This document shows, piece after piece, positions 5,115 to 32,642 of a stretch of DNA of 64,000 bases (positions within the stretch are counted from its first letter, which is position 1; every line of letters starts with the position of its first letter). This stretch comes from Streptomyces sp. NBC_00659 (lineage in GTDB: Bacteria; Actinomycetota; Actinomycetes; Streptomycetales; Streptomycetaceae). The position numbers and the translations under genes were made by a program. The DNA lies in the NCBI RefSeq assembly GCF_036226925.1, contig NZ_CP109031.1:7316001-7380000 (forward strand), written 5' to 3'. The notes under the pieces are model-generated. The model made no database searches and was not told the DNA's origin. It saw only the letters and a list, made by a program, of their open reading frames with translations.

Positions 5115-6440
5115 TCACACCTGGCGGCGGAACACGGGCTTCACCGGCCGTCCGGCCAGCCAGGGGCTCGGGTCCCCGGCGTCCAGTGCCTTGCGGTACA
5201 CCGCGCACGCCTGGGCCACCACGTCGACGGTCCGCTCGATGTCTGCTTCGTCGAGCGCGCTGCTCACCACGAACGACGGGGCCAGCACCCCGCCCGCGAT
5301 GAGCCGGCGCAGGAACAGGGTGCGGTACTCCTGCGACGGCTGCCCCTTCTCGTCGAGGGTGGCGAAGACCAGGTTGCTGGCCCGGCCCCGGACGACGACG
5401 TGGTCGCCGACGCCCATGGTGGCCGCGGCCTCCCGGACCCCGGCGGCGAGCCGCTCGCCGAGGGCGTGCAGCCGCGCGGTGATGCCCTCTTCGGTATAGG
5501 TGGTGAGCACGGCCATCGAGGCCGCCAGGGAGTGTGTCTCCGCGCCGTGCGTGGTGGACAGCAGGAACACCCGCTCGCCGGAGTGACGCAGCCCGCCCAT
5601 CTCCATCAGCTCGCGGCGCCCGGCCAGCGCGGAGACGGCGAACCCGTTGCCCAGCGCCTTGCCGAACGTGGAGAGGTCGGGGACGACGCCGTACAGGCCC
5701 TGGGCGCCCGCCTCGGACCAGCGCAGGCCGGTGATCATCTCGTCGAAGACCAGGACGCAGCCGTACCGGTCGGCCAGCTCGCGCAGACCGGCGAGGTACC
5801 CGGGCGGCGGCTCGGTCTGGGCGGCGGGTTCGAGGATCAGGCAGGCGACGTCCTCCGGGTACCGTTTCAGCAGCTCCTCCGTGGCGGCCAGGTCCCCGTA
5901 GGGGAACGTCACGGTGAGTTCGTTCGTCTCCGCCGGAATGCCCGCGGACATCGGCGTGGTGCCGATGAACCAGTCGTCGACGGAGAAGAACGGATGGTCG
6001 GCGCAGATGGCCACCCGCGTGCGCCCGGTGGCGGCCCGGGCGAGGCGCACCGCGGCGGTGGTGGCGTCGGAGCCGTTCTTCGCGAACTTCACCATCTCGG
6101 CGGTCGGCACCGTGGCCAGGAAGCGTTCCGCGGCCGCGACCTCCACGATGGACGGCCGGACGAAGTTGCAGCCGCGGTCGAGTTCCCGCCGTACCGCCTC
6201 GACCACACGGGGGTGCGCGTGACCGAGGCTGACCGACCGCAGGCCGGAGCCGTACTCGATGTAACGGTTTCCGTCGACGTCCCACACGTGGGCACCGCTG
6301 CCGTGACTGATGACCGGGGCCAGGTTGTCGGGGTACTGGTCGTCGCCCTTGGCGTAGGTGTGCGCGCCCCCGGGGATCATGGCGTGCAGCCGCTCGTTGG
6401 CTGTCCGCGACAGGGGCAGGTGAAGTTCTTCGGTGTCCAC
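5115..6440 (-). CDS. PLP-dependent aminotransferase, glutamate-1-semialdehyde aminomutase-like
   Basis: A 441-residue class III aminotransferase. It has PGGAHTYAKG near the N-terminus (GSA aminomutase style), NGSDATTAAVRLAR (about residue 124), the Asp of LVFDEMITGLRW and the Schiff-base lysine in STFGKALGNG (about 263). Position as the last gene of the polysaccharide operon, 7 bases after the RmlC-like gene, argues for amination of a sugar or a small acyl substituent rather than heme synthesis. The start is GTG 6440, preceded by GAGG. The exact substrate cannot be read from the sequence. Confidence 0.85.
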   Translation of the reverse strand: MDTEELHLPLSRTANERLHAMIPGGAHTYAKGDDQYPDNLAPVISHGSGAHVWDVDGNRYIEYGSGLRSVSLGHAHPRVVEAVRRELDRGCNFVRPSIVEVAAAERFLATVPTAEMVKFAKNGSDATTAAVRLARAATGRTRVAICADHPFFSVDDWFIGTTPMSAGIPAETNELTVTFPYGDLAATEELLKRYPEDVACLILEPAAQTEPPPGYLAGLRELADRYGCVLVFDEMITGLRWSEAGAQGLYGVVPDLSTFGKALGNGFAVSALAGRRELMEMGGLRHSGERVFLLSTTHGAETHSLAASMAVLTTYTEEGITARLHALGERLAAGVREAAATMGVGDHVVVRGRASNLVFATLDEKGQPSQEYRTLFLRRLIAGGVLAPSFVVSSALDEADIERTVDVVAQACAVYRKALDAGDPSPWLAGRPVKPVFRRQV

Positions 6441-6447
6441 GGGGACC

Positions 6448-6999
6448 TCAACTCTCTTCGTGCTTCAGGACCTCGGCGAGGCTCGGTGCCTCCCGGTCCC
6501 GTTGGGACATCGATGTGACCGGCAGCGGCCAGGGAACGGCGAGCTCCGGGTCGTCGAAGGCGATCGTCACGTCCTCGGCCGGATCGTGCGGGCGGTCGAT
6601 CCGGTAGGAGGTGTCGGCGGTCTCGGTCAGCGACTGGAAGCCGTGCGCGCACCCCGCCGGGATGTACAGGGAGACCTGCGTCTCGCCGGACAGCTCGAAG
6701 GTGGCCACGTTGCGGTACGTCGGCGAGTCCGTCCGCAGATCCACGACGACGTCGAAGATCCTTCCGTACGAGCACCGCACCAGCTTGGCCTCGCCCGCGC
6801 CGGAGCGCAGGTGCAGACCGCGCAGCACGCCCCGGACCGAACGGGACAGGCTGTCCTGGATGAAGGCGTCCGGGTCGAGGCCCACCGAGCGGACCACGTC
6901 GGCGTCGAAGGTGCGGCTGAAGAAGCCGCGCTCGTCGGCGAACGGTGTCGGCTCGAACAGGTACGCGCCGGCGATCGCCGGGACGTGGGTCGCTTTCAT
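6448..6999 (-). CDS. dTDP-4-dehydrorhamnose 3,5-epimerase-like protein (RmlC family)
   Basis: A 183-residue cupin. DERGFF (about residue 22), RGLHLR with the catalytic His, KLVRC and PAGCAHGF are all RmlC hallmarks. In the segment where RmlC enzymes usually have the catalytic tyrosine (DYY.P), this protein reads DRPHDP, so the proton-donor Tyr appears replaced. It may therefore be a 3-epimerase only, or act on a different sugar. No rmlA, rmlB or rmlD is in the window. The ATG overlaps the upstream pyruvyltransferase stop by 4 bases. Confidence 0.82.
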   Translation of the reverse strand: MKATHVPAIAGAYLFEPTPFADERGFFSRTFDADVVRSVGLDPDAFIQDSLSRSVRGVLRGLHLRSGAGEAKLVRCSYGRIFDVVVDLRTDSPTYRNVATFELSGETQVSLYIPAGCAHGFQSLTETADTSYRIDRPHDPAEDVTIAFDDPELAVPWPLPVTSMSQRDREAPSLAEVLKHEES

Positions 7000-8228
7000 C
7001 GGGTCTCCCGCTGGGCGTGGGCGTGGTCGGTCGCCGGGAACAGGGTCGCGGTCAACTCGTCGAACTGGTCGTCCAGTTGCCGGGCGGCGGCCTGGTTGCG
7101 CTCGGCGAGGGTCCGCCGCAGTTCCGCCGATCGCTTCTCCAGCGCCCGGAACTGTTCGAGCAGTCGGTCGGCGTCCACCTCACGCGCCGGGTGGCAGTAC
7201 GCGCCGAGACCCATCCCCTCCATGAGCGCGTCGCTCTTCGCCGCGTAGCTGAGCGCGAGCGCCGGTGTGCCGGTCTTCAGCGCGCAGATCAGGTTGTGGT
7301 ACCGGACCGCCACCACCGTGTCGGCGGCGGCCATCTCGTTCATCAGGTCGGCCAGCGAGGCCGGTTCGGCGGCGGTGACCAGCGGTGAGTCCACCGCGTC
7401 GAGGATCGCGGCGACCACCGTCGCGTCGCAGGTGTCGCCGGTGAGGAGCCGGACCGGCCTGCCCTCCTCGACCAGCGTCCGCACGAACCGGATCGTCCCG
7501 TCGAGATAGCGCCGGTGGATCTCCTCGGCCCGGGCGCGGTCGTCGTTGCCGCCGTGGAAGTCCATGACCCCGACGCAGACAGGGCCCGGCGCACCCGAGG
7601 GCTCGCTCGCCCGCGGCGCGGGCAGGGAGAACGCGAGGTCCGGGTAGACCTTGTCGCGCGCGGTGTTTACGCCCATCGCCCGCATCGCGTCACGGGACTG
7701 GACATCCCGGTAGGACCGGTACGCGGCCAGCCGCCCAGACCAGCGCACCAGGGCCCGGGTCGGCCGGTTGCGGATCTCGGCGGCCCCGACGCTGACGAGC
7801 GCGACCCGGGTGCGCAGCAGTCGGCCGCTCGCGCAGAGCAGGAACAGCGAGTACGGGAAGCCCCACGGCCGCAGCGGCAGCGTGGCCTCCAGGACGCCCA
7901 TGCCCGGGACGATCACCACGTCGTGCCGGCGCACCCAGGAGGCGGTGCGGAAGACGTCGACGAGTTTGCCCAGACCCTTGCCCACGATCGCGCCGGCCCG
8001 TGACGCGGTCCGGTACTCCCCGCGGTACCAGTGCAGCCGCGTCGCGGGGATCCCGAACCGGGCCGTGACGGCCTCGGGCCCGCCGCACAGCGCGTCCACG
8101 GCCGCCTCCGGGTGCCTGTCCCGCAGGTACCCGAGCACGGCCTCCAGCGACCCGTCGTTGCCGAGGTTGCCGGAGCCGAGCAGGCCGAACACCCCGACGC
8201 GCACCGGAGTGCCCTTCGCGGGCGTCAC
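6996..8228 (-). CDS. Polysaccharide pyruvyl transferase family protein
   Basis: A 410-residue protein with the PF04230 layout: GLLGSGNLGNDGSLEA at the N-terminus, IVPGMGVLEA (about residue 111), SVGAAEIRNRP (about 151) and a C-terminal VAVRYHNLICALKTGTPALAL segment with the conserved (R)-x-H. Family members transfer pyruvate from PEP onto sugars as a ketal, adding negative charge to exopolysaccharide. Others in the superfamily (WcaK-like) are less well defined. GTG start, with a 4-base GTGA overlap with the glycosyltransferase upstream. Confidence 0.85.
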   Translation of the reverse strand: MTPAKGTPVRVGVFGLLGSGNLGNDGSLEAVLGYLRDRHPEAAVDALCGGPEAVTARFGIPATRLHWYRGEYRTASRAGAIVGKGLGKLVDVFRTASWVRRHDVVIVPGMGVLEATLPLRPWGFPYSLFLLCASGRLLRTRVALVSVGAAEIRNRPTRALVRWSGRLAAYRSYRDVQSRDAMRAMGVNTARDKVYPDLAFSLPAPRASEPSGAPGPVCVGVMDFHGGNDDRARAEEIHRRYLDGTIRFVRTLVEEGRPVRLLTGDTCDATVVAAILDAVDSPLVTAAEPASLADLMNEMAAADTVVAVRYHNLICALKTGTPALALSYAAKSDALMEGMGLGAYCHPAREVDADRLLEQFRALEKRSAELRRTLAERNQAAARQLDDQFDELTATLFPATDHAHAQRETR

Positions 8229-9172
8229 GGCCGCCTCCCCTCACGGCCGGCGACCAGGGCGTCGACGGAGACGCTCAGCCGGTCCGGGCCGACCGGGGCG
8301 CGGTCCTCGACCCGCTCGCCGGCGCCCGGCCGGACCCGGCTGGTCATCCACGCGGCCAGGTGGCGGTAGCAGGCGCGCCGGTCGGCCGGGGACAGCGGCG
8401 CCCGCCGGATCGCCGAGACGAAGCCCCAGACGTACTCGGCGAGCAGCCGGGGCGTCGGGTGCAGCGGGCCCGCCCGGCGCGGGTCCAGGTTGACGCACCG
8501 CGAGCGCTTGGAGGGGTTCGCCCGCTCGGCGCGGGTGGGATGGTCGCGGCGGAAGTACAGCAGCTCCGGCACCTGGTGGAAGGGCCCGTGCAGGGTGATC
8601 TCGGCGACGTAGGTGCGGTCCGCGTGGTGGTAGCTGTCCATCGGCTTCACCCGGCGCAGCCTGTCGGCCCGGAACACCCCGTAGAAGTCGTCGCCGCCGG
8701 GCTCGAACAGCAGGCTGCGGAAGCGCTCCGGCGCGTGCGGCGAGTCGGTGGCGAGCGTGTACGCGTAGGGGACCTTCACCTTGCCGTCGCCGTCGATGAC
8801 CGCCTGGCCGGTGTGCGCGAGGATCATCTCCGGCCGCTCGTCCAGCGCCTCCACGCAGACCCGCAGCAGGTCCCGGCCGTACAGGTCGTCGTGCGAGGCC
8901 CACTTGAACAGCTCGCCGCGGGACTCGGCGAGCACATGGTTGTGGTTCGGTGTCGCGCCGATGTTCCGGGGCAGCCGGATGTACCGGATGCGCGAGTCCT
9001 TCGCGGCGTACCTGCGGCAGATGTCCTCGGTCCCGTCGGCCGAGGCGTTGTCGGAGACGACCAGCTCGAAGTCCTCGTAGGTCTGGCCGAGCAGGGCGTC
9101 GAACGACTCGGCGAGGTACTCCTCGCCGTTGTACACGGGCAGGCCGATGCTCAGCCTGGGTTGCGCGGTCAT
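8225..9172 (-). CDS. Family 2 glycosyltransferase
   Basis: A 315-residue inverting GT-A glycosyltransferase. LSIGLPVYNGEEYL starts the nucleotide-binding fold, VVSDNASADGTE follows, and ASHDDLYG (about residue 95) is the metal-binding DxD-type site. No membrane segment is evident, so it should act at the inner face of the membrane to extend the lipid-linked repeat unit. The ATG at 9172 overlaps the flippase stop by 4 bases. Longer upstream open reading is out of frame with known genes and was not used. Confidence 0.88.
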   Translation of the reverse strand: MTAQPRLSIGLPVYNGEEYLAESFDALLGQTYEDFELVVSDNASADGTEDICRRYAAKDSRIRYIRLPRNIGATPNHNHVLAESRGELFKWASHDDLYGRDLLRVCVEALDERPEMILAHTGQAVIDGDGKVKVPYAYTLATDSPHAPERFRSLLFEPGGDDFYGVFRADRLRRVKPMDSYHHADRTYVAEITLHGPFHQVPELLYFRRDHPTRAERANPSKRSRCVNLDPRRAGPLHPTPRLLAEYVWGFVSAIRRAPLSPADRRACYRHLAAWMTSRVRPGAGERVEDRAPVGPDRLSVSVDALVAGREGRRP

Positions 9173-10458
9173 GACGTCCTCACTTCGCGGATCGGTTCTT
9201 GAGCGTGCTCGCGCAGGGCGGACCGCAGTTGCAGCCACCACACGGCCGAGCCGCTGACGGTCGCGGCGGCGACGCCCCAGGCCGAGCCGACCGTGCCGGC
9301 GGCGGCCGCGCCGCCGAGCCCGCCGCCGACGTAACAGGCGGAGGCGAACAACTGGCAGCGCAGGCTGCGCCGGGCCGCGCCGAGCGCGCGCAGCCCGGCC
9401 GCCGCGCCGGTGCCGAGGCCCGCGCCGGCGACGCCGAGGCTGATCGGCACGATGAGCTGGGAGGCGGAGTGCCAGACGTCGCCGAGCACCGTCTCGCCGA
9501 GCCGGCCGGGCACCAGCAGCAGCGCCGAGCCCCAGAGCAGCGCGCCGACGGCCTGCCCCCCGCCGAGGAGCAGGCAGAACCTGCCCAGTCGGTGCGGGGC
9601 CTGCCGCAGTACCCGTGCCGCCTCCGGGACGGTGACCAGCGAAAGCCCCATGAGCACGGCCAGGAACGGGCCGAGCAGGAGCTCGGCGCCCCGCACCGCG
9701 CCGACCGCGCCGACCCCGACGATCACGCCGAGCCCGTACGCCCGCAGCTGGCTCGCGCCACTGAGGCTGACGTTCTCGACCAGGTACCGGTAGCCGAGAT
9801 CGCGCTGTTCGCGCAGCCACCCGCGCGCCTCGGCCATCCGGGGCCGGATGCCGGACTGGACGCAGCCGTAGCCCGCGGCCACCGTGGCGGACGCGCCCCA
9901 GGCGAACACGAAGGCGGCCACGGTGCCGACGCGGGCGGCCACCACCATGGCGGGGACGAGCGCGACACCCCACACGACGTCGTTGAGGAACGCCTTCCGC
10001 CCGGTGCCCGCGGCGAAGAACGAGTACCGCCAGGCGTCCTGGAGCAGCAGCCCCGGCATCATGACACCGAGGGCGGCGAACGCGGGCCCGACCCGGCCGC
10101 CGAGTCCGAGCCCGGCCACCAGGCACACCGCGCCGAGGGCGCCGCCGACGCCGAGCGCGGTGCCCGTCGAACGGCCCACCGCCCCGCGCCAGGCCGCGCC
10201 GGGCGGGCCGCTGAAGCGCACCGTGAGCGGATCGGTGGCCAGCCCGCGGGAGACGTTGAGCACCACGCCGTAGGTCACCCAGGCGAGGCTGAACACGCCG
10301 AACGCGGTCACCCCCAGCGAACGGGCCACATAGATGCCCACCGCGAAGTTGCTCACGCTGGAGGCCGCCTGGTCGGCCAGCCCCCAGGACAGCCGGCCGA
10401 CGAGGGCCCGCTTGGCGGACCCGGCCGGTGCCCTCGTCTTCTCCCCCTCGGTGGTCAT
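9169..10458 (-). CDS. Polysaccharide flippase (Wzx-like, MATE/MOP superfamily)
   Basis: A 429-residue very hydrophobic protein with about 12 predicted membrane segments. The N-terminal part (GLADQAASSVSNFAVGIYVARSLG) is typical of Wzx/oligosaccharide flippases. It would move the undecaprenyl-linked repeat across the membrane for polymerisation by the Wzy-like protein at 16711-17961. The ATG at 10458 lies 5 bases after the DUF4910 gene stop, and the gene end overlaps the GT2 start. Confidence 0.85.
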   Translation of the reverse strand: MTTEGEKTRAPAGSAKRALVGRLSWGLADQAASSVSNFAVGIYVARSLGVTAFGVFSLAWVTYGVVLNVSRGLATDPLTVRFSGPPGAAWRGAVGRSTGTALGVGGALGAVCLVAGLGLGGRVGPAFAALGVMMPGLLLQDAWRYSFFAAGTGRKAFLNDVVWGVALVPAMVVAARVGTVAAFVFAWGASATVAAGYGCVQSGIRPRMAEARGWLREQRDLGYRYLVENVSLSGASQLRAYGLGVIVGVGAVGAVRGAELLLGPFLAVLMGLSLVTVPEAARVLRQAPHRLGRFCLLLGGGQAVGALLWGSALLLVPGRLGETVLGDVWHSASQLIVPISLGVAGAGLGTGAAAGLRALGAARRSLRCQLFASACYVGGGLGGAAAAGTVGSAWGVAAATVSGSAVWWLQLRSALREHAQEPIREVRTS

Positions 10459-10463
10459 CGGCG

Positions 10464-11738
10464 TCACGCCTTGATCAGTTCGGCGCCGTGCAGGGCGTCG
10501 GCCGCGGCGGCGACGGTGTCGAACGGCAGCCCGGCGCGCTCGGCGACGTCCAGCAGACTGTGCTCGCCGTCGGAGAGGCTGAGCACCCACAGCATCGCCA
10601 TCTGGGCCTCCTTGGCGTCGCTGCGGCCGCCGAGCGAGTCGTACAGCCCGCGCCGGCCGAGCTGCGGCTCGCCGTAGGGGCTGAGGTTGACGTAGCTCCG
10701 GTTGCGGTCCAGGACGGCGAAGGCCTCGCGGCACACGGCGAGCGTGTCCGCCATCGCCTCCGGGGAGACGAAGTCCAGGTCGTCCGCCGAGGTGTGGTAC
10801 TCGGGGTAGCCGGCGTACGGGGTCCGGCTGAGCGAGCCCACGCCGAGATCGAACCCGGGCGAGCAGTACTGCCGCTCGTCGTACCCGTACGGGGTGAACT
10901 CCTTGACCTGGTGCGGACGTTCGGAGGATGCCAGCACGTGCCGCATCACCCGGTCGATCTCCGCGTCCCCGCGCCTGCTCTGCTTGTACGTCAGCCGGCC
11001 CGAGTCGCCCGCGCAGGCCAGCACCAGCCCGTGCCTGACCCGGTCCACCCGCTCCGCGTTGCGGGCCAGCCAGGTGATCGCCCCGACGGTGCCGGGCGCG
11101 AAGATGAACCGGTAGGTGTAGTACGGGCTCTGCTCCGCCAGCGCGCGCGCCAGGTACGTCGCCACGGCGATGCCGGCCAGGTTGTCGTTGGCCAGCGACG
11201 GGTGGCAGACGTGGCAGGAGACGATCACCTCGTCGGCGATCTGCCCGGGGACCACGTGCTCGGCGTAGGTGAGGTGCCCGTCGGCGAGCGTGGAGTCGAC
11301 GCGCACCTCGTAGTCGCCGTCCGGCATCGCGTCCAGGGTGTCCTGGGCCAGGCAGAACCCCCATTCCGGCTTGTAGTAGCTGGTGCGGTACGGCACCCAG
11401 GCCGGGTGGTCCGGCAGCGTGTGCAGGTGTCCGCGCAGCTCGGACAGCGGCATGGTCGCCGACACCGGCACGCTGTAGCCGAGCACGTGCAGGCTGGACG
11501 CGGCGAAGTCGACGACCCGCCTGCCCGTGCTGTCGGCGATGTACGCCTCCCGGATGTTCCACTCCTGCGGCACCGTCCAGTCGAGCACCTGGGTCCCGGT
11601 CGGTACCTCGTGCACCTGGAGCGGTATGTGCTCACCGACGATGTCCAGGGTGGCGCGCACCCCGTCGCCGGTGATGCTCCGGCACAGCGGGTACATCCGC
11701 TCCACCAGCGCGTGCATCTCCTCGCCGAGCTTGGTCAC
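10464..11738 (-). CDS. DUF4910 / M28-like aminopeptidase-fold protein
   Basis: A 424-residue protein of the DUF4910 (aminopeptidase-like) type. Likely metal-binding positions are visible: SCHVCHPSLANDNLAG (about residue 162-177, His and Asp), CSPGFDLG and EYHTSADDLD (about 325, His and Asp). The last 60 residues look like a winged helix (LDVAERAGLPFDTVAAAADAL). Proteins of this family recur in sugar clusters beside a C-methyltransferase, cytidylyltransferase and PIG-L protein, as here, but their reaction is not established. A deacylase or ligase-like role on a modified sugar is inference. GTG start, 4-base overlap with the SDR gene. Confidence 0.8.
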   Translation of the reverse strand: MTKLGEEMHALVERMYPLCRSITGDGVRATLDIVGEHIPLQVHEVPTGTQVLDWTVPQEWNIREAYIADSTGRRVVDFAASSLHVLGYSVPVSATMPLSELRGHLHTLPDHPAWVPYRTSYYKPEWGFCLAQDTLDAMPDGDYEVRVDSTLADGHLTYAEHVVPGQIADEVIVSCHVCHPSLANDNLAGIAVATYLARALAEQSPYYTYRFIFAPGTVGAITWLARNAERVDRVRHGLVLACAGDSGRLTYKQSRRGDAEIDRVMRHVLASSERPHQVKEFTPYGYDERQYCSPGFDLGVGSLSRTPYAGYPEYHTSADDLDFVSPEAMADTLAVCREAFAVLDRNRSYVNLSPYGEPQLGRRGLYDSLGGRSDAKEAQMAMLWVLSLSDGEHSLLDVAERAGLPFDTVAAAADALHGAELIKA

Positions 11739-12760
11739 CGGCGCCACCGCAGGGTGTCGTCGACGGTGCCGGCGTCGGACGCGGCGCGCAGCACGGCGAG
11801 CCGGGTGAAGCGCTGCTCGAAGCTCTCCCGGGTCAGACCGTGTTCCCGGTAGGCGTCGGCGAGTTCGAGCGCGCCCCGCTTCACCGTCCACTCGCAGTCG
11901 AAGCCGGGGATCGCGGCGCGGAACCGGGAGAAGTCCACCCGGTACGACCGCGGATCGGCACCGTTCTCCCCGGTGATCACCACCTTCGCGCCGGACACCG
12001 CCTCGGCGACCTGGTCGGCGATCTCGGCGACCGTGACGTTGTTGAACTCGCCGCCGATGTTGAAGGCCCGGTCGTGCACCGCTTCCCTGGGCGCGGTCAG
12101 CGCGGCCGCGAAGGCCCGCGCGATGTCGGCGGCGTGCACCAGCGGACGCCAGGGGGTGCCGTCGGAGAGCACGAGCACCTCGCCGGACAGGAGGGCGTGC
12201 CCCACCAGGTTGTTCAGCACGATGTCGGCGCGCAGCCGGGGCGAGAAGCCGAAGGCGGTGGCGTTGCGCATGTACACCGGGGTGAAGTCGTCGTCGGCCA
12301 GCTCGTGCAGGTCGTCCTCCACCCGCACCTTGGACTCCGCGTACGGCGTCACCGGCCGCAGCGGGGCGTCCTCGGCCACCAGGTCGTCGCCGCCGGCGGC
12401 GCCGTAGACCGAGCACGTCGACGCGTACAGGAAGCGCCGCACCCCGGCCTCGCGGGCCAGCCGGGCCAGGCGTACGGACGCGTGGTGGTTGATGTCGTAG
12501 GTGAGTTCCGGCGCCAGCGACCCCAGCGGGTCGTTGGACAGCGCGGCCAGGTGGATCACGGCGTCCACCCCGGCCACGTGCTCGGCCGTGACGTCACGCA
12601 GATCCACCCGCGGTCCCGGCGGGTCGGCGGGCGTCGGGCCCAGCACGCAGTCGGCGAACAGGCCGGAGTCAAGACCGACGACCTCGTGCCCGGCGGCCGT
12701 GAGGACAGGGGCCATGACGGTGCCCAGGTAGCCCTGGTGCCCGGTCAGCAGTACGCGCAA
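11735..12760 (-). CDS. NAD-dependent epimerase/dehydratase (extended SDR)
   Basis: A 341-residue SDR with the NAD-binding TGHQGYLG at the N-terminus, HLAALSNDP (about 71), catalytic STCSVYG and YAESK (Tyr/Lys, about residue 140), and RPLVHAADIARA near the sugar-binding region. It acts on a nucleotide sugar, most likely the CDP-sugar made by the adjacent cytidylyltransferase, and is the only SDR in the operon. Start is TTG 12760 with a GGGGGA site upstream, 3 bases after the PIG-L stop. Confidence 0.87.
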   Translation of the reverse strand: MRVLLTGHQGYLGTVMAPVLTAAGHEVVGLDSGLFADCVLGPTPADPPGPRVDLRDVTAEHVAGVDAVIHLAALSNDPLGSLAPELTYDINHHASVRLARLAREAGVRRFLYASTCSVYGAAGGDDLVAEDAPLRPVTPYAESKVRVEDDLHELADDDFTPVYMRNATAFGFSPRLRADIVLNNLVGHALLSGEVLVLSDGTPWRPLVHAADIARAFAAALTAPREAVHDRAFNIGGEFNNVTVAEIADQVAEAVSGAKVVITGENGADPRSYRVDFSRFRAAIPGFDCEWTVKRGALELADAYREHGLTRESFEQRFTRLAVLRAASDAGTVDDTLRWRR

Positions 12761-12763
12761 GGT

Positions 12764-16708: not shown

Positions 16709-16710
16709 GC

Positions 16711-17961: not shown

Positions 17962-17962
17962 C

Positions 17963-19483: not shown

Positions 19484-19496
19484 GCGTCCTTCCTCC

Positions 19497-23668: not shown

Positions 23669-23697
23669 CCGAAGTCCCCTTGTTTCTAAGCCGTGTT

Positions 23698-25632: not shown

Positions 25633-25635
25633 GTC

Positions 25636-27156
25636 CTACCGTGCCTCCTGGTCGCTGTCCGGGACGCGTGCCGCCCACATCGGCAGCCGCTCCGTCCGCC
25701 GCGGGCCCGATCCGCCCTGGCGGGCCGACCGCTCGTCCTGGCCGCGCAGCGCGGTGTTCAGCCCGTCCCACAGGGTGCCGTCGGTCCGGTCACGCGGATC
25801 GGGGTCGATCAGCACCACGCCGATCACCGCGATGCGCTGGTCCGCGAGCTGCCGTGCCACGGTGTGCAGCCATGCGGCGCTGCCGTGCCCGGCGCGTACG
25901 ACCAGCACGGTCCGCGTGCCGAGGTACTGCAGGTCGGTCCACGCGGTGCCGGGCGCCACCGAGCCGACTCCCACCCGGCGTTCCTGATGCGGCACGGACG
26001 CGGCACCTTCGCCGCTGACCACGGTCGGGTCTCCCGGCTTCGGGCGGCGCTTGGCGAGTTGCAGGCCGGGCAGACCGTCGACGACGACCACCGGCCCGTC
26101 CGCCGCCAGCGCCCTGGCGAGATCCAGGGCGAGCACGCTCGTGCTGCGCGCGGTGCCCAGTTCGAGCAGTGACACCGGTTCCGCGGAGGTGCGCGCGGTG
26201 CGCGCCAGGGATGTGGTGAGCCGTTCGCGTGCCAGCCGGATCCGCCGGCGCCGCCACAGCCGGCCCGACCGGCGGGGCAGCTCCGCGACGACCGAGGCGC
26301 CGAGGTTCGACGCGATCTCCCGGCGCAGCACGGGGCGGTCGGCCACCACCGAACCGACCGCGGCCACCGCGAGGCCGAGGACGAGGCCGAGGACGAGGCC
26401 GACCGCGGCGTTGGTGGCGGCGGCTTCGGGCAGGGAGTTCCGCACCGCGCTCGGGGCGTCCACGATCTGTGTGCCGGCGATGAGCTTCGGCGTGCCGATG
26501 CGCGCCTCGGCGGCGCGCTGGCCGAAGTCGGAGATCCGTGAGGTGAGTTCGGCCCGGCGGGCGAAGAGCGACTCCAGGTCCGCCGACGCCGTCGGCCCGC
26601 TCCGCGGCGATCCGTCCCCGATCGCCTTGTTGACCTGGGCGAGTTCGCCCTGCAGGCGGTCACGCTGGTCGAGCAGGGCCTTGGCCTCGGCGTCCGCGGC
26701 CGCCCGGATCCGCTTCACATGGTCCGCGACGAACGCGTCGGCCAGTGCCTTGGCGCGGGCCTCCGCGTCCGCGTCGCTGTCACCGGTCACCGTGATCTGC
26801 AGCAGGTTGTTGGTCAGGCCGATCCCCGTGTAGTCCTTCATGAAGTCCTCCGGCTTCTCCGGAGAGTGAAGGGACTTCAGGGCCCGGTCGGCGATCCGCG
26901 TGGTCTGGAGCAGCGCGACGTCGGTACGGATCAGCGTTCCGGGGTCGTTCGGCTGGTCCTCCTGATGCGCGACCAGCACCTTGGTCTCCGCGGTCGGCGG
27001 CGTCGGCAGCAGGACCGCCACCGCCGCGCCCACGAGCAGCCCCAGCAGCCCCACGGCACACCAGAAGCGGCGCCGTCTGCGCACCGCCACCACCAGCGCC
27101 TGCAGATCCAGCAGCGGAGCGGCGGCCGACGACTCCGCAGTCGTACTCGTCGTCAC
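25636..27156 (-). CDS. Wzz-like chain-length protein with degenerate BY-kinase-like domain
   Basis: A 506-residue membrane protein. One membrane segment is at about 34-50 and a second at about 250-270. Between them is a Wzz-type extracytoplasmic region with coiled-coil character. The cytoplasmic C-terminus resembles CpsD/Wzc kinases (LLELGTARSTSVLALDLARAL, VVVVDGLPG), but the Walker A lysine motif (GxxxxGK[ST]) is replaced by GTARSTS. There is no tyrosine-rich tail. It is probably a regulator of chain length or export without kinase activity. GTG start, with a GTGA overlap with the other Wzz gene. Confidence 0.8.
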   Translation of the reverse strand: MTTSTTAESSAAAPLLDLQALVVAVRRRRRFWCAVGLLGLLVGAAVAVLLPTPPTAETKVLVAHQEDQPNDPGTLIRTDVALLQTTRIADRALKSLHSPEKPEDFMKDYTGIGLTNNLLQITVTGDSDADAEARAKALADAFVADHVKRIRAAADAEAKALLDQRDRLQGELAQVNKAIGDGSPRSGPTASADLESLFARRAELTSRISDFGQRAAEARIGTPKLIAGTQIVDAPSAVRNSLPEAAATNAAVGLVLGLVLGLAVAAVGSVVADRPVLRREIASNLGASVVAELPRRSGRLWRRRRIRLARERLTTSLARTARTSAEPVSLLELGTARSTSVLALDLARALAADGPVVVVDGLPGLQLAKRRPKPGDPTVVSGEGAASVPHQERRVGVGSVAPGTAWTDLQYLGTRTVLVVRAGHGSAAWLHTVARQLADQRIAVIGVVLIDPDPRDRTDGTLWDGLNTALRGQDERSARQGGSGPRRTERLPMWAARVPDSDQEAR

Positions 27157-28520
27157 CCTGAACTTCCCTTCGCGTCGTGGCCGACCGCGAGCACCGGCGT
27201 GGAGGTGTTCCGGGGACGGCCGGCGGACCGCGCCGGCAGGGCCCGGACCATGCCGGCGAGGACGATGCCGACGATCTCGTACTTGGCGTCCGCACAGGCC
27301 TCGGCGATGCCCGCGAGCTCCCCCGCGGTCCAGCTGCCCGGGCTGAGCACGACCAGGGCACCGGACTCGTTGCCGCGGTCCGGCACCAGCGGATGGGACA
27401 CGGAGACCCCCACCATCCGCAGCACGGGATCGCCTTCCGCCTCCGCGACGAGCTGACCCGCGGCCCGGCGGGCGATCTCGTCGCCTTCCGGGAAGACGAC
27501 CAGCAGCCCCCGCGGAGCGGGCAGCAGGTCCCGGAGACGGGTACACACCCGCCGGTAGCGGATCTGCCTGCTGACCTCGTCGCCGGAGGCCTGCGGGGCC
27601 GGTATGTCCCAGCGGACGTCGACGCCCAGCAGCCGGCGGATCGTGGCCCGCGGGCCACGGCCCTCCGGCCGGTGCGCGGACCGTTCACCGGGAACGTCGA
27701 CGGTCCCCAGCAGCGCCGCGCCCAGCGCCGCGGCGATCTCCGGCTGGGTGCGCAGCCGGCGGCTCATCCGGGCCGCGGTGAGATGGCCGACGACCCCGAG
27801 CAGGAAGAACAGCAGCGCCCCGGCGACGACGAGCTGGATCCTGGTCGGCGGTGCCTCGCCGGTCGGCCGGGCGGCCGACCCCATCACGACCATGTTGGCC
27901 CTGCCGGCGGAGGGGTCGGCCTGGTCCAGCTTGCCGATGGCCTCCTGGAGCGTGGTACGCAGCTTCTCGAGCTCGGTGCGGGCCTGCACGCTCTCCACGG
28001 TCTGCCCCGGATCGGCGGCGTCGGCCAGCTCGGTGATGCGACGGCTGGTCTGCACCACCGTCTGCTGCAGTGCCTCGCGCTGCGCCGCCGCCTCGGGGTC
28101 GGTGTTGTCGTCCACGATCCGCGCGGCGAACGTGACGAACTGCTTGGCCACCTGGTCGGCGAGCTGCTGCGCGCGCTCCGGGGTCTCGGCCGTGCCCGAG
28201 ATCTTGATGATGTTCCCGTCGGCGGTCTTGGCGCTCACCCGGTCCCGGAGCTCGCTGTTGCTGACCCCGGACCAGTGCAGCGCGGCGGCCGCCTGGTCGA
28301 CCACGACCGAACTGGTCGCGATCTCCTCCTGGGTCACCAGCTCGCGCTCCTCCCAGGCGCCCGGCAGCAGTACCGATGCCGACGTCGTGTAGCGCGGCGG
28401 GAAGAGCAAGGACGTGCCGTACCCGGCGAGCGCGCCCACCAGGGCGAGGACGGTGAGGAGCCGCCAGCGCCGACGGATGATCCGCCCGATCGTGACCAGG
28501 CGTATCGTGTCATCGTTCAA
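27153..28520 (-). CDS. Wzz-like chain-length determinant protein
   Basis: A 455-residue protein. Membrane segment 1 is at about 20-40 and segment 2 at about 228-248, with an extracytoplasmic helical region between them. The cytoplasmic tail has a Rossmann-like fold (RGLLVVFPEGDEIARRAAG, GALVVLSPGSW, IVGIVLAGMV) that resembles BY-kinase domains but lacks a P-loop. Together with the next gene it forms a Wzz pair. The start is TTG 28520, overlapping the glycosyltransferase stop by 11 bases. Confidence 0.8.
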   Translation of the reverse strand: MNDDTIRLVTIGRIIRRRWRLLTVLALVGALAGYGTSLLFPPRYTTSASVLLPGAWEERELVTQEEIATSSVVVDQAAAALHWSGVSNSELRDRVSAKTADGNIIKISGTAETPERAQQLADQVAKQFVTFAARIVDDNTDPEAAAQREALQQTVVQTSRRITELADAADPGQTVESVQARTELEKLRTTLQEAIGKLDQADPSAGRANMVVMGSAARPTGEAPPTRIQLVVAGALLFFLLGVVGHLTAARMSRRLRTQPEIAAALGAALLGTVDVPGERSAHRPEGRGPRATIRRLLGVDVRWDIPAPQASGDEVSRQIRYRRVCTRLRDLLPAPRGLLVVFPEGDEIARRAAGQLVAEAEGDPVLRMVGVSVSHPLVPDRGNESGALVVLSPGSWTAGELAGIAEACADAKYEIVGIVLAGMVRALPARSAGRPRNTSTPVLAVGHDAKGSSG

Positions 28521-29784
28521 CGGTGCGGCCTCCGCCCTGTGCCCGGTCAGGATCGTCCGCCGACGCCGGGGCGTGGTCGCGGCAGGCGGCGGCGTAGGCC
28601 GCGAGCAGGGACGCCTGGGAGTTGCGCCAGGAGAGCGGGCCGCTGATCCGCTCCTGGCCGATCTTGCCCATCAGAGCGCGCTTCTCCGGATCGTCCAGCA
28701 GCAGCCCGATGAGCCTCGCGAACTCGGCCTCGTCGTTGGCGGGCGCGTAGACGGCGGCGTCACCGGCGGAGACGCGCGCCTCCCGGAGGTCGAAGGAGAC
28801 GAGCGGCCTGCCCATCACCATGTACTCCAGGACCTTGTTCATGGTCGAGACGTCGTTGAGCGGGTTGTGCGGGTCGGGGGAGAGGCACACGTCCGCGGTG
28901 GACAGGTAGCGCACCAGGTCCGCGTCCGGGATCCGTCCGGTGAACTGCACCTGCTCCGAGAGCCCGAGCTGCCGGGACAGCTCCACCATCGCCTCGAAGG
29001 TGTCGCCGCCGCCGACGAACACCGCGTGCCAGTCGGTCCGCCCGACCTCGTCGCGCAGTTTCGCCAGAGCCCGCAAGGCGTAGTCGACGCCGTCCTGCGG
29101 GCCCATGACCCCGAGGTAGCACAGCAGATGGGGCTTGCCGCGCTTCAGCTCCGGCTCGGGCGGTACGGGGTGGAACCGGTCGATGTCGGGCGCGCTGCGC
29201 ACCACGAAGACGTCCTCGGGCCGTCGGCCGCCGCGGCGCACCGCGACGTCCCGGTAGCTCTCGTTCGTGGCGAGCACGACGTCCGCGGCCCGGTAGGTCA
29301 TCCGTTCCAGCGCGCACACACCGCGGTAGAGCAGGTCCTTGCCGCGGCCGAACCGCGACAGGTACAGCTCGGGCACCAGGTCGTGCTGGTCGAAGACGAA
29401 CCGCGCTCCGCGCCGCTTCAGCCACCGCGCGGGCAGGAACAGGAGGTCGGGCGGATTGCAGGCGTGCACCACGTCGACCGGGCCGATCTTCCGGGCCAGT
29501 CGCATGGTGTGCCACAACGCCGATCCGTACTCCCGCAGATAGCCGGCCGGTCCGCCGGTGGCGGCGCGCAACGGGTAGCGGTGGATCCGCACCCCGTCGA
29601 TCACCGCCTCCGGCTCCGTGTCCCGCTTGCTGCCCTGGGGACAGATGACGTGCACCGTCCAGCCAGCGTCGCGCAGGGTCGTGCATTCCTGCCACACCCG
29701 TCGGTCGAAGGGCACCGACAGGTTCTCCACCAGGATCAGCGCGCGCCGGTCAGGCCGGTCGCCGCTGGTCGTGTCACCAAGCAA
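28510..29784 (-). CDS. Family 4 glycosyltransferase
   Basis: A 424-residue GT-B enzyme. The N-terminal domain has LILVENLSVPFDRRVWQE (the WbuB/GT4-like opening) and HACNPPDLLFLPA (about 109). The donor domain has LLCYLGVMGPQDGVDYAL and EYMVMGRPLVSFDL (about 345). It likely adds an early sugar, since the gene follows the sugar 6-dehydrogenase. The only plausible start is TTG 29784, overlapping the dehydrogenase stop by 11 bases. Confidence 0.86.
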   Translation of the reverse strand: MLGDTTSGDRPDRRALILVENLSVPFDRRVWQECTTLRDAGWTVHVICPQGSKRDTEPEAVIDGVRIHRYPLRAATGGPAGYLREYGSALWHTMRLARKIGPVDVVHACNPPDLLFLPARWLKRRGARFVFDQHDLVPELYLSRFGRGKDLLYRGVCALERMTYRAADVVLATNESYRDVAVRRGGRRPEDVFVVRSAPDIDRFHPVPPEPELKRGKPHLLCYLGVMGPQDGVDYALRALAKLRDEVGRTDWHAVFVGGGDTFEAMVELSRQLGLSEQVQFTGRIPDADLVRYLSTADVCLSPDPHNPLNDVSTMNKVLEYMVMGRPLVSFDLREARVSAGDAAVYAPANDEAEFARLIGLLLDDPEKRALMGKIGQERISGPLSWRNSQASLLAAYAAACRDHAPASADDPDRAQGGGRTVER

Positions 29785-31090
29785 GGCCCATGTATCCCGG
29801 TTCGGTCCGGCGCGCGTCGGCGTCGGGAAGGTGGATGAGATCGACGATCATCGGGCCGTCGCCGTGGGGCAGCGCCGACAGCACGGCCGGGTCCCTGGTT
29901 CCGACCAGGCACACCTCCGCGTGTTCCAGCACCTCGTCGACGGAGTCCGCGAGCAGCTGCGCGAGGTGCGGCAGCCGGGTCTCGATGTATTCGCGGTTCG
30001 CGCCGAGCAGCCGGGAGAGGCTCACGTTGGCGTCGTGGATCCGCAGGTCGTACCCCTTGCCGAACAGCCTCTCCGCCAGCTCGACGAGCGGGCTCTCGCG
30101 GAGGTCGTCGGTGCCGGGTTTGAAGGACAGCCCGAACAGGCCGACCCGGCGCTTGCCGGTGCGCTCGACCATCTCCACCGCGCGCTGCAGATGGTCGGAG
30201 TTGGAGGGCAGCACGTGGGAGAGGATGGGCACCGAGACGTCCGCCCGCTGCGCCGCGTGGACCAGGCTGCGCAGGTCCTTGGGCAGGCACGAGCCGCCGA
30301 AGGCGAAACCGGGCCGCAGATAGGCGGGGCTGATGTTCAGCTTGCGGTCGGCCAGGAACACGTCGATCACCTGGTGCGAGTCCACCCCGAGGGCCTGGCA
30401 CACCGCGCCCAGCTCGTTCGCGAAACCGATCTTGAGGCCGTGGAAGGCGTTGTCCGCGTACTTGATCGCCTCGGCCACGGGGATCGGCACCCGGAACACC
30501 TCGCCGGGCAGTCCCTCGTACAGGGCCGCCACCACATCGCCGCTCGCCGCGTCGAGTTCGCCGATGACGGTCTTCGGCGGGTCGAAGAAGTCCCGCACGC
30601 TCGTGCCCTCGCGCAGGAACTCCGGGTTGACCGCGACCCCGACGTCCACGCCGGCCGTTCCGCCGACGTACTTCTCCAGGATCGGCACCAGCAGGTTCAG
30701 GCAGGTGCCCGGGAGCATGGTGCTGCGGAACACCACGGTGTGCCGCCCGCCCCGCTCGGCCAGCGCGGCACCGATCTCCTCGGTGACCCGCTCCAAGTAC
30801 GTGGTGCACAGGCTGCCGTTGGGCTCCGAGGGCGTGCCCACGCAGATCAGCGACACCTCGCTGTCCGCGATCGCCTCACGGACGTCGGTGGTGGCGCGTA
30901 AGGCCCCGCTCCCCACGACGTCGGCGACGAGCTCGCCGATCCCCTCCTCGACCACCGGGGCCTTGGCGTCGTTGACCAGGTCGACCTTCACCTGGTTGAC
31001 GTCCACGCCGATGACCTCGTGGCCCTGGCCGGCCAGGCACGCGGCCGACACACAGCCCACGTAACCGAGCCCGAAAACGCTGACCTTCAT
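29774..31090 (-). CDS. UDP-glucose/GDP-mannose 6-dehydrogenase family, AlgD-like
   Basis: A 438-residue nucleotide-sugar dehydrogenase. It has the NAD site FGLGYVGCVSAACLAGQGHEV from residue 5, NPEFLREGT (about 157) and active-site Cys in FAFGGSCLPKDLRSL (about 265). The segment GLSFKPGTDDLRESPLVELAE and the YIET.LPHL region read very close to alginate GDP-mannose dehydrogenase AlgD, more than to UDP-glucose dehydrogenases. It oxidises C6 to give a uronic acid donor. The ATG at 31090 has a GGGAGGAA site. Substrate assignment to GDP-mannose is inference. Confidence 0.87.
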   Translation of the reverse strand: MKVSVFGLGYVGCVSAACLAGQGHEVIGVDVNQVKVDLVNDAKAPVVEEGIGELVADVVGSGALRATTDVREAIADSEVSLICVGTPSEPNGSLCTTYLERVTEEIGAALAERGGRHTVVFRSTMLPGTCLNLLVPILEKYVGGTAGVDVGVAVNPEFLREGTSVRDFFDPPKTVIGELDAASGDVVAALYEGLPGEVFRVPIPVAEAIKYADNAFHGLKIGFANELGAVCQALGVDSHQVIDVFLADRKLNISPAYLRPGFAFGGSCLPKDLRSLVHAAQRADVSVPILSHVLPSNSDHLQRAVEMVERTGKRRVGLFGLSFKPGTDDLRESPLVELAERLFGKGYDLRIHDANVSLSRLLGANREYIETRLPHLAQLLADSVDEVLEHAEVCLVGTRDPAVLSALPHGDGPMIVDLIHLPDADARRTEPGYMGLAW

Positions 31091-31163
31091 GACCCGTTCC
31101 TCCCCCAGGGCAGACCCTTGCGGCCTGCCGTACACGCGCCTGCCGGACGACACCCTCCGCGCA

Positions 31164-32642
31164 TCAATAGGCCCCCTGCCCGTAGAGCACCGCACGCAGC
31201 GTCTTCCACAAGATCACTGTGTCCAGGGCGAGCGACCAGTCCTCCACGTACCGCAGGTCCAGCCGCACCGCCTCCTCCCACGACAGGTCGCTGCGTCCGC
31301 TGATCTGCCACAGGCCGGTCAGTCCGGGCTTGACCAGCAGCCGCCGACGGATGTCCGGGCCGTACGCGGCGGACTCCTCAGGCAACGGAGGCCGCGGACC
31401 GACGAGCGACATCGATCCGGTCAACACGTTGAAAAGCTGCGGGAGTTCGTCGATCGAGTACCGGCGCAGCACCGCTCCGACCCGGGTCACCCGCGGATCC
31501 CGGCGGACCTTGAACAACAGACCGGCACCCTCGTCGAGGCCGGCCAGCTCCGCACGTGCCTTGTGGGCCCCGGAGACCATGGTGCGGAACTTGAGGATCG
31601 TGAACTCGCGGCCGTTCTTGCCGACCCGGCGCTGCTGGTAGAACGCTCCGCCCCGGCTGTCGAGGAGCACGAGCAGTCCGACGAACACCATCAGCGGCGC
31701 GAACAGTAACAACAGGACGGCCGCGCCCAGCCGGTCGACGACCACCTTGACCGCCCGGCGGCCCCCGGTGAACGTCGGCATGCTGACCCGCAGCAGCGGG
31801 ATCCCGAGCACCGCGTCGACGTGCAGCCGCGGACCGGCCACCTCCATCAGCACGGGGGCCACGACCATCTCGGCGTCGCTGCCCTCGAGGTTCCAGGCCA
31901 GTCGTTGCAGCCGGTCCGGCGACCAGTGCGGGTCCGGGGTGACCGCGACGACGCGATAGCCGTCGCGGTGCACGTGGGTCGCGACGTCCGCCAGCAGCCC
32001 GACGACCGGCACTCCGTCCAGCTCGTCACCGTCGAGCCCGTGACCGTCGGTCGTGCACACCGCCTCCACCCGCCAGCCGAGGTGCGGGAACTTACGGGTC
32101 CGGGTGACCAGGTCGTGCAGGGTCGCCGGGCTCCCGGCGGCGAGCACCGGTCGCAGGCACCGTCCTTCCTTACGTTGCTTGTGCAGCCACAGGCGCAGCA
32201 GATAGCGCACGGTCATCGTGACGAGCGCGATCGCGGGGATCGCGACGAAGATCCAGAGTTTGATGTTGCGCGAGGTGAGCGCGATCCCGCCGAGCGCCAG
32301 GACGACGGTCGCCGCGAACAGCGAGCGTCCTAACCGGCGGAATTCCTCCGCGCCCTGGCCGAGCACGGCCGGAGCCCACGCCCGGCTCACCGCTAACGCC
32401 CCCAGCACCAGCAGTTCGGTGCCGAACGCGAGGATGCCCCATTTCTCGTGCCAGTTGGCCGCGTCCCGGGCCCCGAAGAAGTTGCCGATCGCCGCCACCA
32501 CGAAGGCGGTGGCGATCATGTCGCTGGTGATCACGGTACGGCGGTACCGCTGCTCCCAGTCGGTCGCAGGCTGATTGACCCCCCCGTTCGTCAGACGCTC
32601 GCGCGCAGACGGAAACGGGCGTACTAGTCCCCCTTGCCGCAC
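31164..32642 (-). CDS. Undecaprenyl-phosphate sugar phosphotransferase (exopolysaccharide initiation)
   Basis: A 492-residue polyprenyl-phosphate phosphoglycosyltransferase of the WbaP/WcaJ type. The N-terminal half has four to five membrane segments and a soluble nucleotide-binding-like region. The C-terminal catalytic domain has a membrane helix, then QQRRVGKNGREFTILKFRTM, SIDELPQLFNVLTGSMSLVGPRP and VKPGLTGLWQISGRS. It loads the first sugar phosphate on the lipid carrier. It is the first gene of the operon, 73 bases before the dehydrogenase. The start is GTG 32642, with a GGGGGG site. No closer ATG fits the expected N-terminus. Confidence 0.88.
   Translation of the reverse strand: MRQGGLVRPFPSARERLTNGGVNQPATDWEQRYRRTVITSDMIATAFVVAAIGNFFGARDAANWHEKWGILAFGTELLVLGALAVSRAWAPAVLGQGAEEFRRLGRSLFAATVVLALGGIALTSRNIKLWIFVAIPAIALVTMTVRYLLRLWLHKQRKEGRCLRPVLAAGSPATLHDLVTRTRKFPHLGWRVEAVCTTDGHGLDGDELDGVPVVGLLADVATHVHRDGYRVVAVTPDPHWSPDRLQRLAWNLEGSDAEMVVAPVLMEVAGPRLHVDAVLGIPLLRVSMPTFTGGRRAVKVVVDRLGAAVLLLLFAPLMVFVGLLVLLDSRGGAFYQQRRVGKNGREFTILKFRTMVSGAHKARAELAGLDEGAGLLFKVRRDPRVTRVGAVLRRYSIDELPQLFNVLTGSMSLVGPRPPLPEESAAYGPDIRRRLLVKPGLTGLWQISGRSDLSWEEAVRLDLRYVEDWSLALDTVILWKTLRAVLYGQGAY

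Follow-up and report, generated by a model that had tools for sequence, protein, structure and literature searches.

What does a streptomycete make with 21 genes in one run that join an initiating polyprenyl-phosphate transferase to an AlgD-like dehydrogenase, a beta-helix lipoprotein, a heparinase-family protein and an AsnB-type amidotransferase? The run (g1 to g21) lies on the minus strand, from position 32642 to 5115, of a stretch of 64,000 nucleotides (hereafter the window) from Streptomyces sp. NBC_00659 (contig NZ_CP109031.1, positions 7,316,001 to 7,380,000), whose complete genome comprises 9.66 Mb. In a preliminary description of the window, this run had been interpreted as an operon for an acidic polysaccharide following an alginate-type logic. 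Judged from the genes alone, the operon probably directs the Wzx/Wzy-dependent synthesis of an acidic heteropolysaccharide, located at the cell surface or extracellular, from a mannuronate donor. The cluster, its link to exopolysaccharide and the prediction of GDP-mannuronate formation by its Streptomyces coelicolor gene SCO0382 are already known. New in this study are the evidence for an AlgD-type enzyme, the inclusion of a PAP2 gene and a leader in the conserved unit, the movement of the unit as a whole, the linkage of dehydrogenase, GT4 glycosyltransferase and heparinase, and the negative search for a GDP-mannose 4,6-dehydratase.

Operon layout

The open reading frame layout and a codon bias consistent throughout bore out the co-directional run of 21 genes, and the domain families were confirmed by Pfam and NCBIfam scans of the 21 proteins. 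With the chosen gene starts, the largest gap was 29 bp and exact 4-base overlaps were found at 10 of the 20 junctions, i.e. at half of them and not at most of them as described before. If the start of g2 is placed at 31090, where the alignment to AlgD begins, the gap between g1 and g2 amounts to 73 bp; the corresponding gap in an annotated orthologue is 77 bp. The bounds given previously hold for the 21 genes and are slightly short for the conserved unit, which additionally includes the convergent PAP2 gene and a leader of about 470 bp (Table 1).

The uronate donor and GDP-sugar supply

The enzyme g2 matched the GDP-mannose dehydrogenase of P. aeruginosa (PDB 1mfz) with 4.2e-142, compared to 1.9e-64 for the best UDP-glucose enzyme (3vtf). 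The residues K-N-H and LN-S-Y-PG, which we take to be the substrate motif of GDP-mannose dehydrogenases, are intact in g2 and its 14 orthologues (15/15); three distant actinobacteria retain them with hardly any change (G254, G099 and, with S replaced by A, G142). The motif is lacking in the paralogues L160, L162, L163 and L164 of the same genome, the four compared out of five matches, the fifth being L165. The reading as a UDP-glucose dehydrogenase was rejected on the PDB scores and the motif, which provide strong support for the prediction of an AlgD-type GDP-mannose 6-dehydrogenase, in agreement with the preliminary description. In the NCBIfam scan, the general model TIGR03026 came first, followed by AglM (302 bits) and TuaD (227 bits), both far below their cut-offs, and no AlgD model was present in the match list. 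No GDP-mannose 4,6-dehydratase over the cut-off was detected in the genome (best match 82 vs 415 bits); thus GDP-fucose is not evident de novo, whereas GDP-mannuronate is.

Conservation and movement of the unit

Heparinase and DUF4910, used as marker genes, co-occurred more than expected by chance: both were detected in an identical set of 15 out of 61 genomes, which includes the genome studied here and lies entirely within the 37 genomes of the window's genus. Comparison of the operon order across actinobacteria, as had been suggested, revealed the whole unit in 13 of 14 Streptomyces relatives, with all 21 genes in order plus the convergent PAP2 gene; the sequence of the 14th ends at a contig end inside g17. 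Matches in the relative G027 are partial (g4 49%, g13 76%, DUF4910 in two frames). The PAP2 gene was found in all 13 relatives whose contig covers it (43% covered in G027). The eight flank genes outside the unit do not follow the operon, save one 45% match elsewhere in G031. From 382 heparinase matches, 80 named loci were kept; 77 of these records, carrying close heparinase orthologues, belong to Streptomyces, and in all 76 loci spanning at least 21 kb the genes g4 to g16 are in order. Also, all 22 genes, PAP2 included in each case, are located on three linear Streptomyces megaplasmids (L215, L216 and L217; 0.58, 1.56 and 2.35 Mb), one of which is fully annotated. The unit of 21 genes, PAP2 and leader therefore moves whole. 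Of the 15 operons, 10 contain TTA codons, chiefly in g1 (10) and g2 (8); here they are found in g1, g2 and g8.

Recurring linkages outside Streptomyces

Seven non-Streptomyces plasmid records matched the heparinase at a coverage of at least 67%, and five of them were opened (the seven include a near-identical pair from Shinella); the other 16 plasmid heparinase records (coverage up to 34%) were left uncounted. In all five opened loci, from Alphaproteobacteria and Deinococcus, a dehydrogenase is present that has the AlgD-type motif, and a homologue of g3 is found at 47-52% identity. Dehydrogenase, g3 homologue and heparinase are directly adjacent in four of them and lie within 12 kb in Paroceanicella. 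By listed coordinates, all seven records have a dehydrogenase in the region, six as an adjacent triad. Starting from g3, a dehydrogenase is found at a distance of at most 1.2 kb in 15 of the 20 best plasmid matches (12 of 17 without Streptomyces records); 33 weaker matches were left uncounted, three of them in records that contain a dehydrogenase at another place.

On chromosomes, heparinase matches were obtained in 19 of 396 genomes; 14 of these lie outside the genus, and 11 of the 14 loci were opened. Two actinobacteria from other families have GDP-mannose dehydrogenase, g3, heparinase, bi-domain oxidoreductase and AsnB grouped at 48-62% identity, and close counterparts of g12 to g21 are absent from the vicinity. 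Outside the genus, a close g3 adjoins the dehydrogenase in 5 of the 10 loci with this enzyme. In Nonomuraea gerenzanensis (L223, 16686-34618), the dehydrogenase and g3 are accompanied by the g12 to g16 block at 73-80% identity, and no heparinase, AsnB or oxidoreductase was present in the 37 kb read. Since g2-g3, g6-g8 and g12-g16 recur apart in other loci, the operon is composed of separable blocks, and the group of dehydrogenase, GT4 and heparinase recurs in Actinomycetota, Alphaproteobacteria and Deinococcus. Of the proposed alginate-type logic, the linkage of a uronate donor to a lyase-family gene stands and extends to other phyla; the locus is no alginate operon.

On the Deinococcus aetherius plasmid (L220, 8365-22900), the genes are arranged as PHPT-AsnB-heparinase-GMD-GT4, where GMD is the GDP-mannose dehydrogenase, with an RfbF/SDR/RmlC set nearby.

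Heparinase, beta-helix protein and AsnB-type amidotransferase

For g8, both Pfam domains were identified, confirming the family, and the N, Y and H positions of heparinase III, which we assume to be catalytic, are invariant (15/15). A hydropathy scan gave no hydrophobic segment (no signal-peptide program was run). From this, g8 looks cytoplasmic, and the tailoring of an extracellular polymer by the heparinase, as proposed in the preliminary description, is doubtful. The structural model of g9 is a right-handed beta-helix closest to the mannuronan epimerases AlgE6 and AlgE4, followed by many other beta-helices. Up to an E of 0.1, a profile of 47 sequences failed to match any PDB chain, so no sequence homology to a solved epimerase was found, and DPH (of DPHD/DPHE, presumably the catalytic motif of mannuronan epimerases) is absent from the g9 translation. 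The protein is thus AlgG-like at the fold level only.

The likeness of g6 to WbpS holds in so far as its best family, TIGR03108, is said in print to contain WbpS and WbqG, and falls short in that the score is below the cut-off of this model. The glutaminase Cys2 and the synthetase motif SGGLDS are invariant (15/15). Because AsnB is also seen in loci without a visible GDP-mannose dehydrogenase and this dehydrogenase also without AsnB, amidation of mannuronate specifically by g6 is only a possibility. With a probability slightly short of even, g6 would instead be an ordinary asparagine synthetase or amidate a non-uronate substrate, and the polymer would lack uronamide. This would agree with g6 exceeding the cut-off of the asparagine synthase model TIGR01536, with its being the sole full-length PF00733 protein found in its own genome, and with the co-occurrence of AsnB, oxidoreductase and heparinase in G363 and G290, where no dehydrogenase was seen on contigs of 20-24 kb. 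However, no asparaginyl-tRNA synthetase over the cut-off was found in the genome, so free asparagine may be dispensable for translation; PF00733 was matched just once, at 3.8e-9, in the operon-free Streptomyces G029, and at best with 2.3e-33 in G021; and g6, with TIGR03108 as its best model, accompanies the operon in all 15 genomes.

Published counterparts and regulation

In the preliminary description, no described polymer was known for this combination of genes. This is not supported, as the cluster corresponds to SCO0381-0401 of S. coelicolor, which is called orthologous in print to the Ebosin locus. In Table 4 of PMC3610822, SCO0381-SCO0401 run from 'glycosyl transferase' to 'glutamate-1-semialdehyde 2,1-aminomutase'; compared by position with g1 to g21, informative and fitting names are found for 15 of the genes, five are 'hypothetical', and SCO0399, a 'possible membrane protein', stands at the position of the pyruvyltransferase. 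By published annotation, the operon is of the SCO0381-0401/ste type, with the same genes in the same order. In the passages on the cluster, PMC2000904 describes the 21 genes as a possible single operon, labels them a deoxysugar cluster and shows bldA effects, and PMC3610822 reports increased expression in MII mycelium and places them among secondary-metabolism genes. For SCO0382, PMC5982138 predicts the formation of GDP-mannuronate, in an operon that has features of exopolysaccharide loci, and a table of PMC6629963 labels the gene algD. PMC4398421 describes the S. coelicolor cluster as similar to the ste cluster for Ebosin in Streptomyces sp. 139, which it calls orthologous, with several cluster genes up in a dasR mutant and with dasR next to the ste cluster. 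The published regulation also involves AdpA and SCO4117 and, together with MII mycelium, bldA and dasR, fits a developmental surface product. No product of SCO0381-0401 is stated in the cited passages on the cluster. Among the titles listed, no paper on this locus was found in the literature on heparinase/AsnB/oxidoreductase/Wzy or on mannuronic acid exopolysaccharide of Streptomyces, subscription journals being mostly uncovered. The cwg operon SCO6179-6190 was dropped as a candidate since it is a different, sigma-E-dependent operon of 12 genes.

Proposed pathway and alternative explanations

Based on the observed gene set, its order and conservation, the family identities, the AlgD-type motif and the linkages, the following catalytic steps are proposed. 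Synthesis would start with the loading of a hexose phosphate onto undecaprenyl phosphate by g1, while g2 would oxidize GDP-mannose to GDP-mannuronate. A GDP-linked sugar is most likely transferred by g3, the best candidate being mannuronate, and further sugars would be added by g11 and g18. One of these may be 3-C-methylated and deacetylated, formed by the g12 to g16 block with g20 and perhaps g21, and g19 would add a pyruvate ketal. The repeat could then be flipped by g17 and polymerised by g10 with the Wzz pair g4/g5, and the lipid carrier recycled by the PAP2 phosphatase. The second recurring block, g6 to g8, may act on a uronate-containing intermediate in the cytoplasm, and the exported polymer would be the substrate of g9.

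Several observations weigh against this interpretation. Of the Wzx/Wzy-type layout proposed earlier, g1 and the Wzz pair are clear; the assignments of Wzx, without a family match, and Wzy, under the cut-off, are weak. Outside Streptomyces, only 3 of the 11 opened chromosomal heparinase loci had an AlgD-type dehydrogenase; a dehydrogenase of another type was seen in G412, and some of the loci without the AlgD type are on short contigs. In the alignment, the catalytic residues seem to be missing from the Deinococcus heparinase relative, and in Rhizobium sp. CC-CFT758 the annotation splits the heparinase into two genes. We take Ste5 to be the priming enzyme; together with the transporter genes Ste2-4, the gene order would then equate Ste7 with g3. 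According to its abstract, PMC4347597 assigns Ste7 as a fucosyltransferase in a ste cluster of 27 ORFs (open reading frames) that includes the transporter genes Ste2-4, and term counts in this paper give three for galacturonic acid and zero for both mannuronic acid and GDP-mannose.

These counts, the naming of the clusters as orthologous in PMC4398421 and the other nucleotide-sugar dehydrogenases of the genome, which are without the GDP-mannose dehydrogenase motif, would suit an Ebosin-like exopolysaccharide with galacturonic or glucuronic acid from UDP-sugars made elsewhere, in which g3 is a fucosyltransferase and g2 is of minor importance or its sugar was lost in the analysis. We consider this unlikely: g2 is by score much closer to GDP-mannose dehydrogenase, its motif is conserved in 15/15 orthologues, the equation of Ste7 with g3 comes from gene order, and the missing dehydratase, which leaves no visible de novo route to GDP-fucose, sits badly with a fucosyltransferase. 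The deoxysugar label in PMC2000904 and the secondary-metabolism listing in PMC3610822, along with the antibiotic sugar pathways in which the closest solved C-methyltransferases work, could point to a small deoxysugar-containing secondary metabolite instead of a polymer. With an initiating polyprenyl transferase, two Wzz, Wzy-like, pyruvyltransferase and lipoprotein genes in the operon, and no aglycone-forming family among the 21 genes, this has very little to recommend it. Least credible of all is a true synthase-dependent mannuronan system of the alginate type in a Gram-positive organism. The AlgD-type dehydrogenase and the fold of g9 are what it could draw on, but Pfam and NCBIfam scans of the 21 genes revealed no homologues of Alg8/Alg44-type synthases or of AlgI/J/F/X; the Wzz pair and the initiating transferase are present instead.

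The heteropolysaccharide with a mannuronate donor remains the preferred reading. A bolder version of it is speculative and, taken as a whole, rather improbable. According to this, mannuronate, partly as mannuronamide, would be joined by a branched 3-C-methyl sugar and pyruvate, g9 would be a mannuronan-type epimerase or lyase acting at the cell surface, the composition of Ebosin would have been misread, and the triad would be a general mannuronate cassette of at least three phyla, unrelated to the alginate operon. The predicted mannuronate conflicts with the galacturonate and fucose discussed for Ebosin, the polymer tied to the orthologous locus. The corresponding cluster is carried by S. coelicolor, the usual laboratory model of the genus, where its expression is reported to rise in differentiated mycelium, and the triad of dehydrogenase, GT4 and heparinase provides a handle for finding mannuronate polymers outside alginate producers.

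Gene assignments and leader region

Table 1. Features of the conserved unit in the window (E-values or bit scores where available)
Feature	Position	Strand	Assignment	Evidence
PAP2	4376..5107	+	PAP2 phosphatase, convergent	PF01569 3.6e-13
g21	5115..6440	-	Class III aminotransferase, PRK06209 type (annotated glutamate-1-semialdehyde aminomutase)	NF004856 718.9 bits, cut-off 486
g20	6448..6999	-	RmlC-type 3,5-epimerase	PF00908 3.5e-55; PDB 6c46 4.4e-37
g19	6996..8228	-	Polysaccharide pyruvyl transferase	PF04230 7.7e-24
g18	8225..9172	-	GT2 glycosyltransferase	PF00535 5.4e-25
g17	9169..10467	-	Membrane protein, probable Wzx flippase	5 hydrophobic segments in scan
g16	10464..11738	-	DUF4910 metallopeptidase-like protein of sugar-modification clusters	PF16254 9.1e-116; Das 2014 (PMC4000134)
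g15	11735..12760	-	SDR nucleotide-sugar epimerase/dehydrogenase	PF01370 4.8e-46; PDB 6vo6 8.5e-28
g14	12764..13411	-	PIG-L type deacetylase	PF02585 1.5e-13; AHCDD and HQDH invariant 15/15
g13	13408..14238	-	RfbF-like cytidylyltransferase	PDB 1tzf 2.8e-42; TIGR02623 187 bits, below cut-off 300
g12	14235..15470	-	Sugar 3-C-methyltransferase	PDB 4rv9 (mycarose 3-C-methyltransferase) 6.3e-86, nearly full length
g11	15467..16708	-	GT4 glycosyltransferase	PF00534 2.7e-26
g10	16711..17961	-	Probable Wzy polymerase	PF04932 23.5 bits, below cut-off 31.7; 9 hydrophobic segments
g9	17963..19483	-	Right-handed beta-helix lipoprotein, probably extracellular	Lipobox by eye; Cys 15/15
g8	19497..21464	-	Heparinase II/III-family lyase	PF07940 6.4e-50; PF16889
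g7	21461..23668	-	Bi-domain oxidoreductase (Zn-ADH + GFO/IDH/MocA)	PF00107; PF01408
g6	23698..25632	-	AsnB-type glutamine amidotransferase	TIGR03108 456.5 bits, under cut-off 816.9; TIGR01536 428.4 bits, over cut-off 267.1
g5	25636..27156	-	Wzz-type chain-length protein	PF02706 1.9e-9
g4	27153..28520	-	Wzz-type chain-length protein	PF02706 3.7e-6
g3	28510..29784	-	GT4 glycosyltransferase, beside dehydrogenase in several phyla	PF13692
g2	29774..31090	-	AlgD-type GDP-mannose 6-dehydrogenase (predicted)	PDB 1mfz; motif
g1	31164..32642	-	Polyprenyl-phosphate hexose-1-phosphate transferase (initiating)	PF02397 3.3e-64; TIGR03025 396 bits, over cut-off
Leader	32643..33110	-	Conserved leader/promoter region	Block ATGGTCTAGATTGACC and GC-rich hairpins

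Pfam and NCBIfam scans gave no match for g17, and its AlphaFold (AF2) model (pLDDT 46) is too poor for a structural test of the Wzx assignment. In g13, the nucleotidyltransferase motif columns vary in the automatic alignment of 15 sequences, in which at least one orthologue frame is poor. The weak top NCBIfam match of the PAP2 protein is undecaprenyl-diphosphate phosphatase, far below the cut-off, and recycling of undecaprenyl pyrophosphate is its probable function. No exosortase, the mark of XrtA/PEP-CTERM loci, was found among the 21 genes in the Pfam and NCBIfam scans. By eye, both Wzz-type proteins (25636-28520) have C-terminal extensions, and that of g5 resembles a fold of the tyrosine-kinase type but lacks a Walker A motif. 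Transposase genes are located in the right half of the window at 57176-58219 and 62543-63733 (rve integrase core; IS110 family).

Upstream of g1, about 470 bp are conserved (blastn matches of ~200-620 bp between relatives), while the flanks beyond are not. The 16-base block ATGGTCTAGATTGACC is located ~430 nt upstream of the g1 start, followed nearer to g1 by one to three hairpins GGGAGGC-GGGG-GCCTCCC and then by GGGGAGGAACAG. The heptamer GGTCTAG is exact in 11 of the 14 genomes with enough upstream sequence (that of G032 is too short) and one base off in the other three. By regular expression, the hairpin was detected in 14 of 15 leader sequences and missed in G026. For 14 sequences, alifold gave a z of about -3.4 relative to 60 column shuffles; compensatory changes were few. 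In its own genome, the hairpin has one exact copy and three matches with up to two mismatches, compared to two matches of the reversed control pattern, and no Rfam family reached the gathering score for the leader (two chance-level matches only). We regard the hairpins as a lead. Control by DasR through a standard site was also considered and set aside, as ATGGTCTAGATTGACC has only the half TGGTCTAGA in common with the dre consensus.

Comparison with known systems

In S. coelicolor, the 21 genes SCO0381-0401 have compatible names in the same order by annotation, but the TTA codons are found in SCO0383 and SCO0399 instead of g1, g2 and g8. The ste cluster of strain 139, known here by its published description, is called orthologous and contains the glycosyltransferase Ste7; dasR adjoins ste (PMC4398421), whereas no GntR-type match was obtained among the flanking proteins scanned here. 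With alginate biosynthesis (AlgD, AlgG, AlgL), the operon shares the AlgD-type dehydrogenase, the mannuronan-epimerase fold in g9 and the linkage of a lyase-family gene to the uronate donor. It differs in its layout, which is apparently of the Wzx/Wzy type and not synthase-dependent, in having a heparinase-family lyase without a hydrophobic segment, and in that g9 matches no solved epimerase by sequence. WbpS, WbqG and PGN_1234 are assigned in PMC7468200 to the family whose model TIGR03108 is the best for g6. The likeness is one of family model, with g6 below the cut-off, and plain mannuronate, in place of an acetamido uronate, would be the sugar of this pathway. In the DUF4910 neighbourhoods described by Das 2014 (PMC4000134), SDR, nucleotidyltransferase, methyltransferase and DUF4910 genes likewise stand together, several of them also with export and pyruvyltransferase genes. 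In contrast to these, the block here has the form C-methyltransferase-RfbF-PIGL-SDR-DUF4910 (g12 to g16), which is also present in Nonomuraea.

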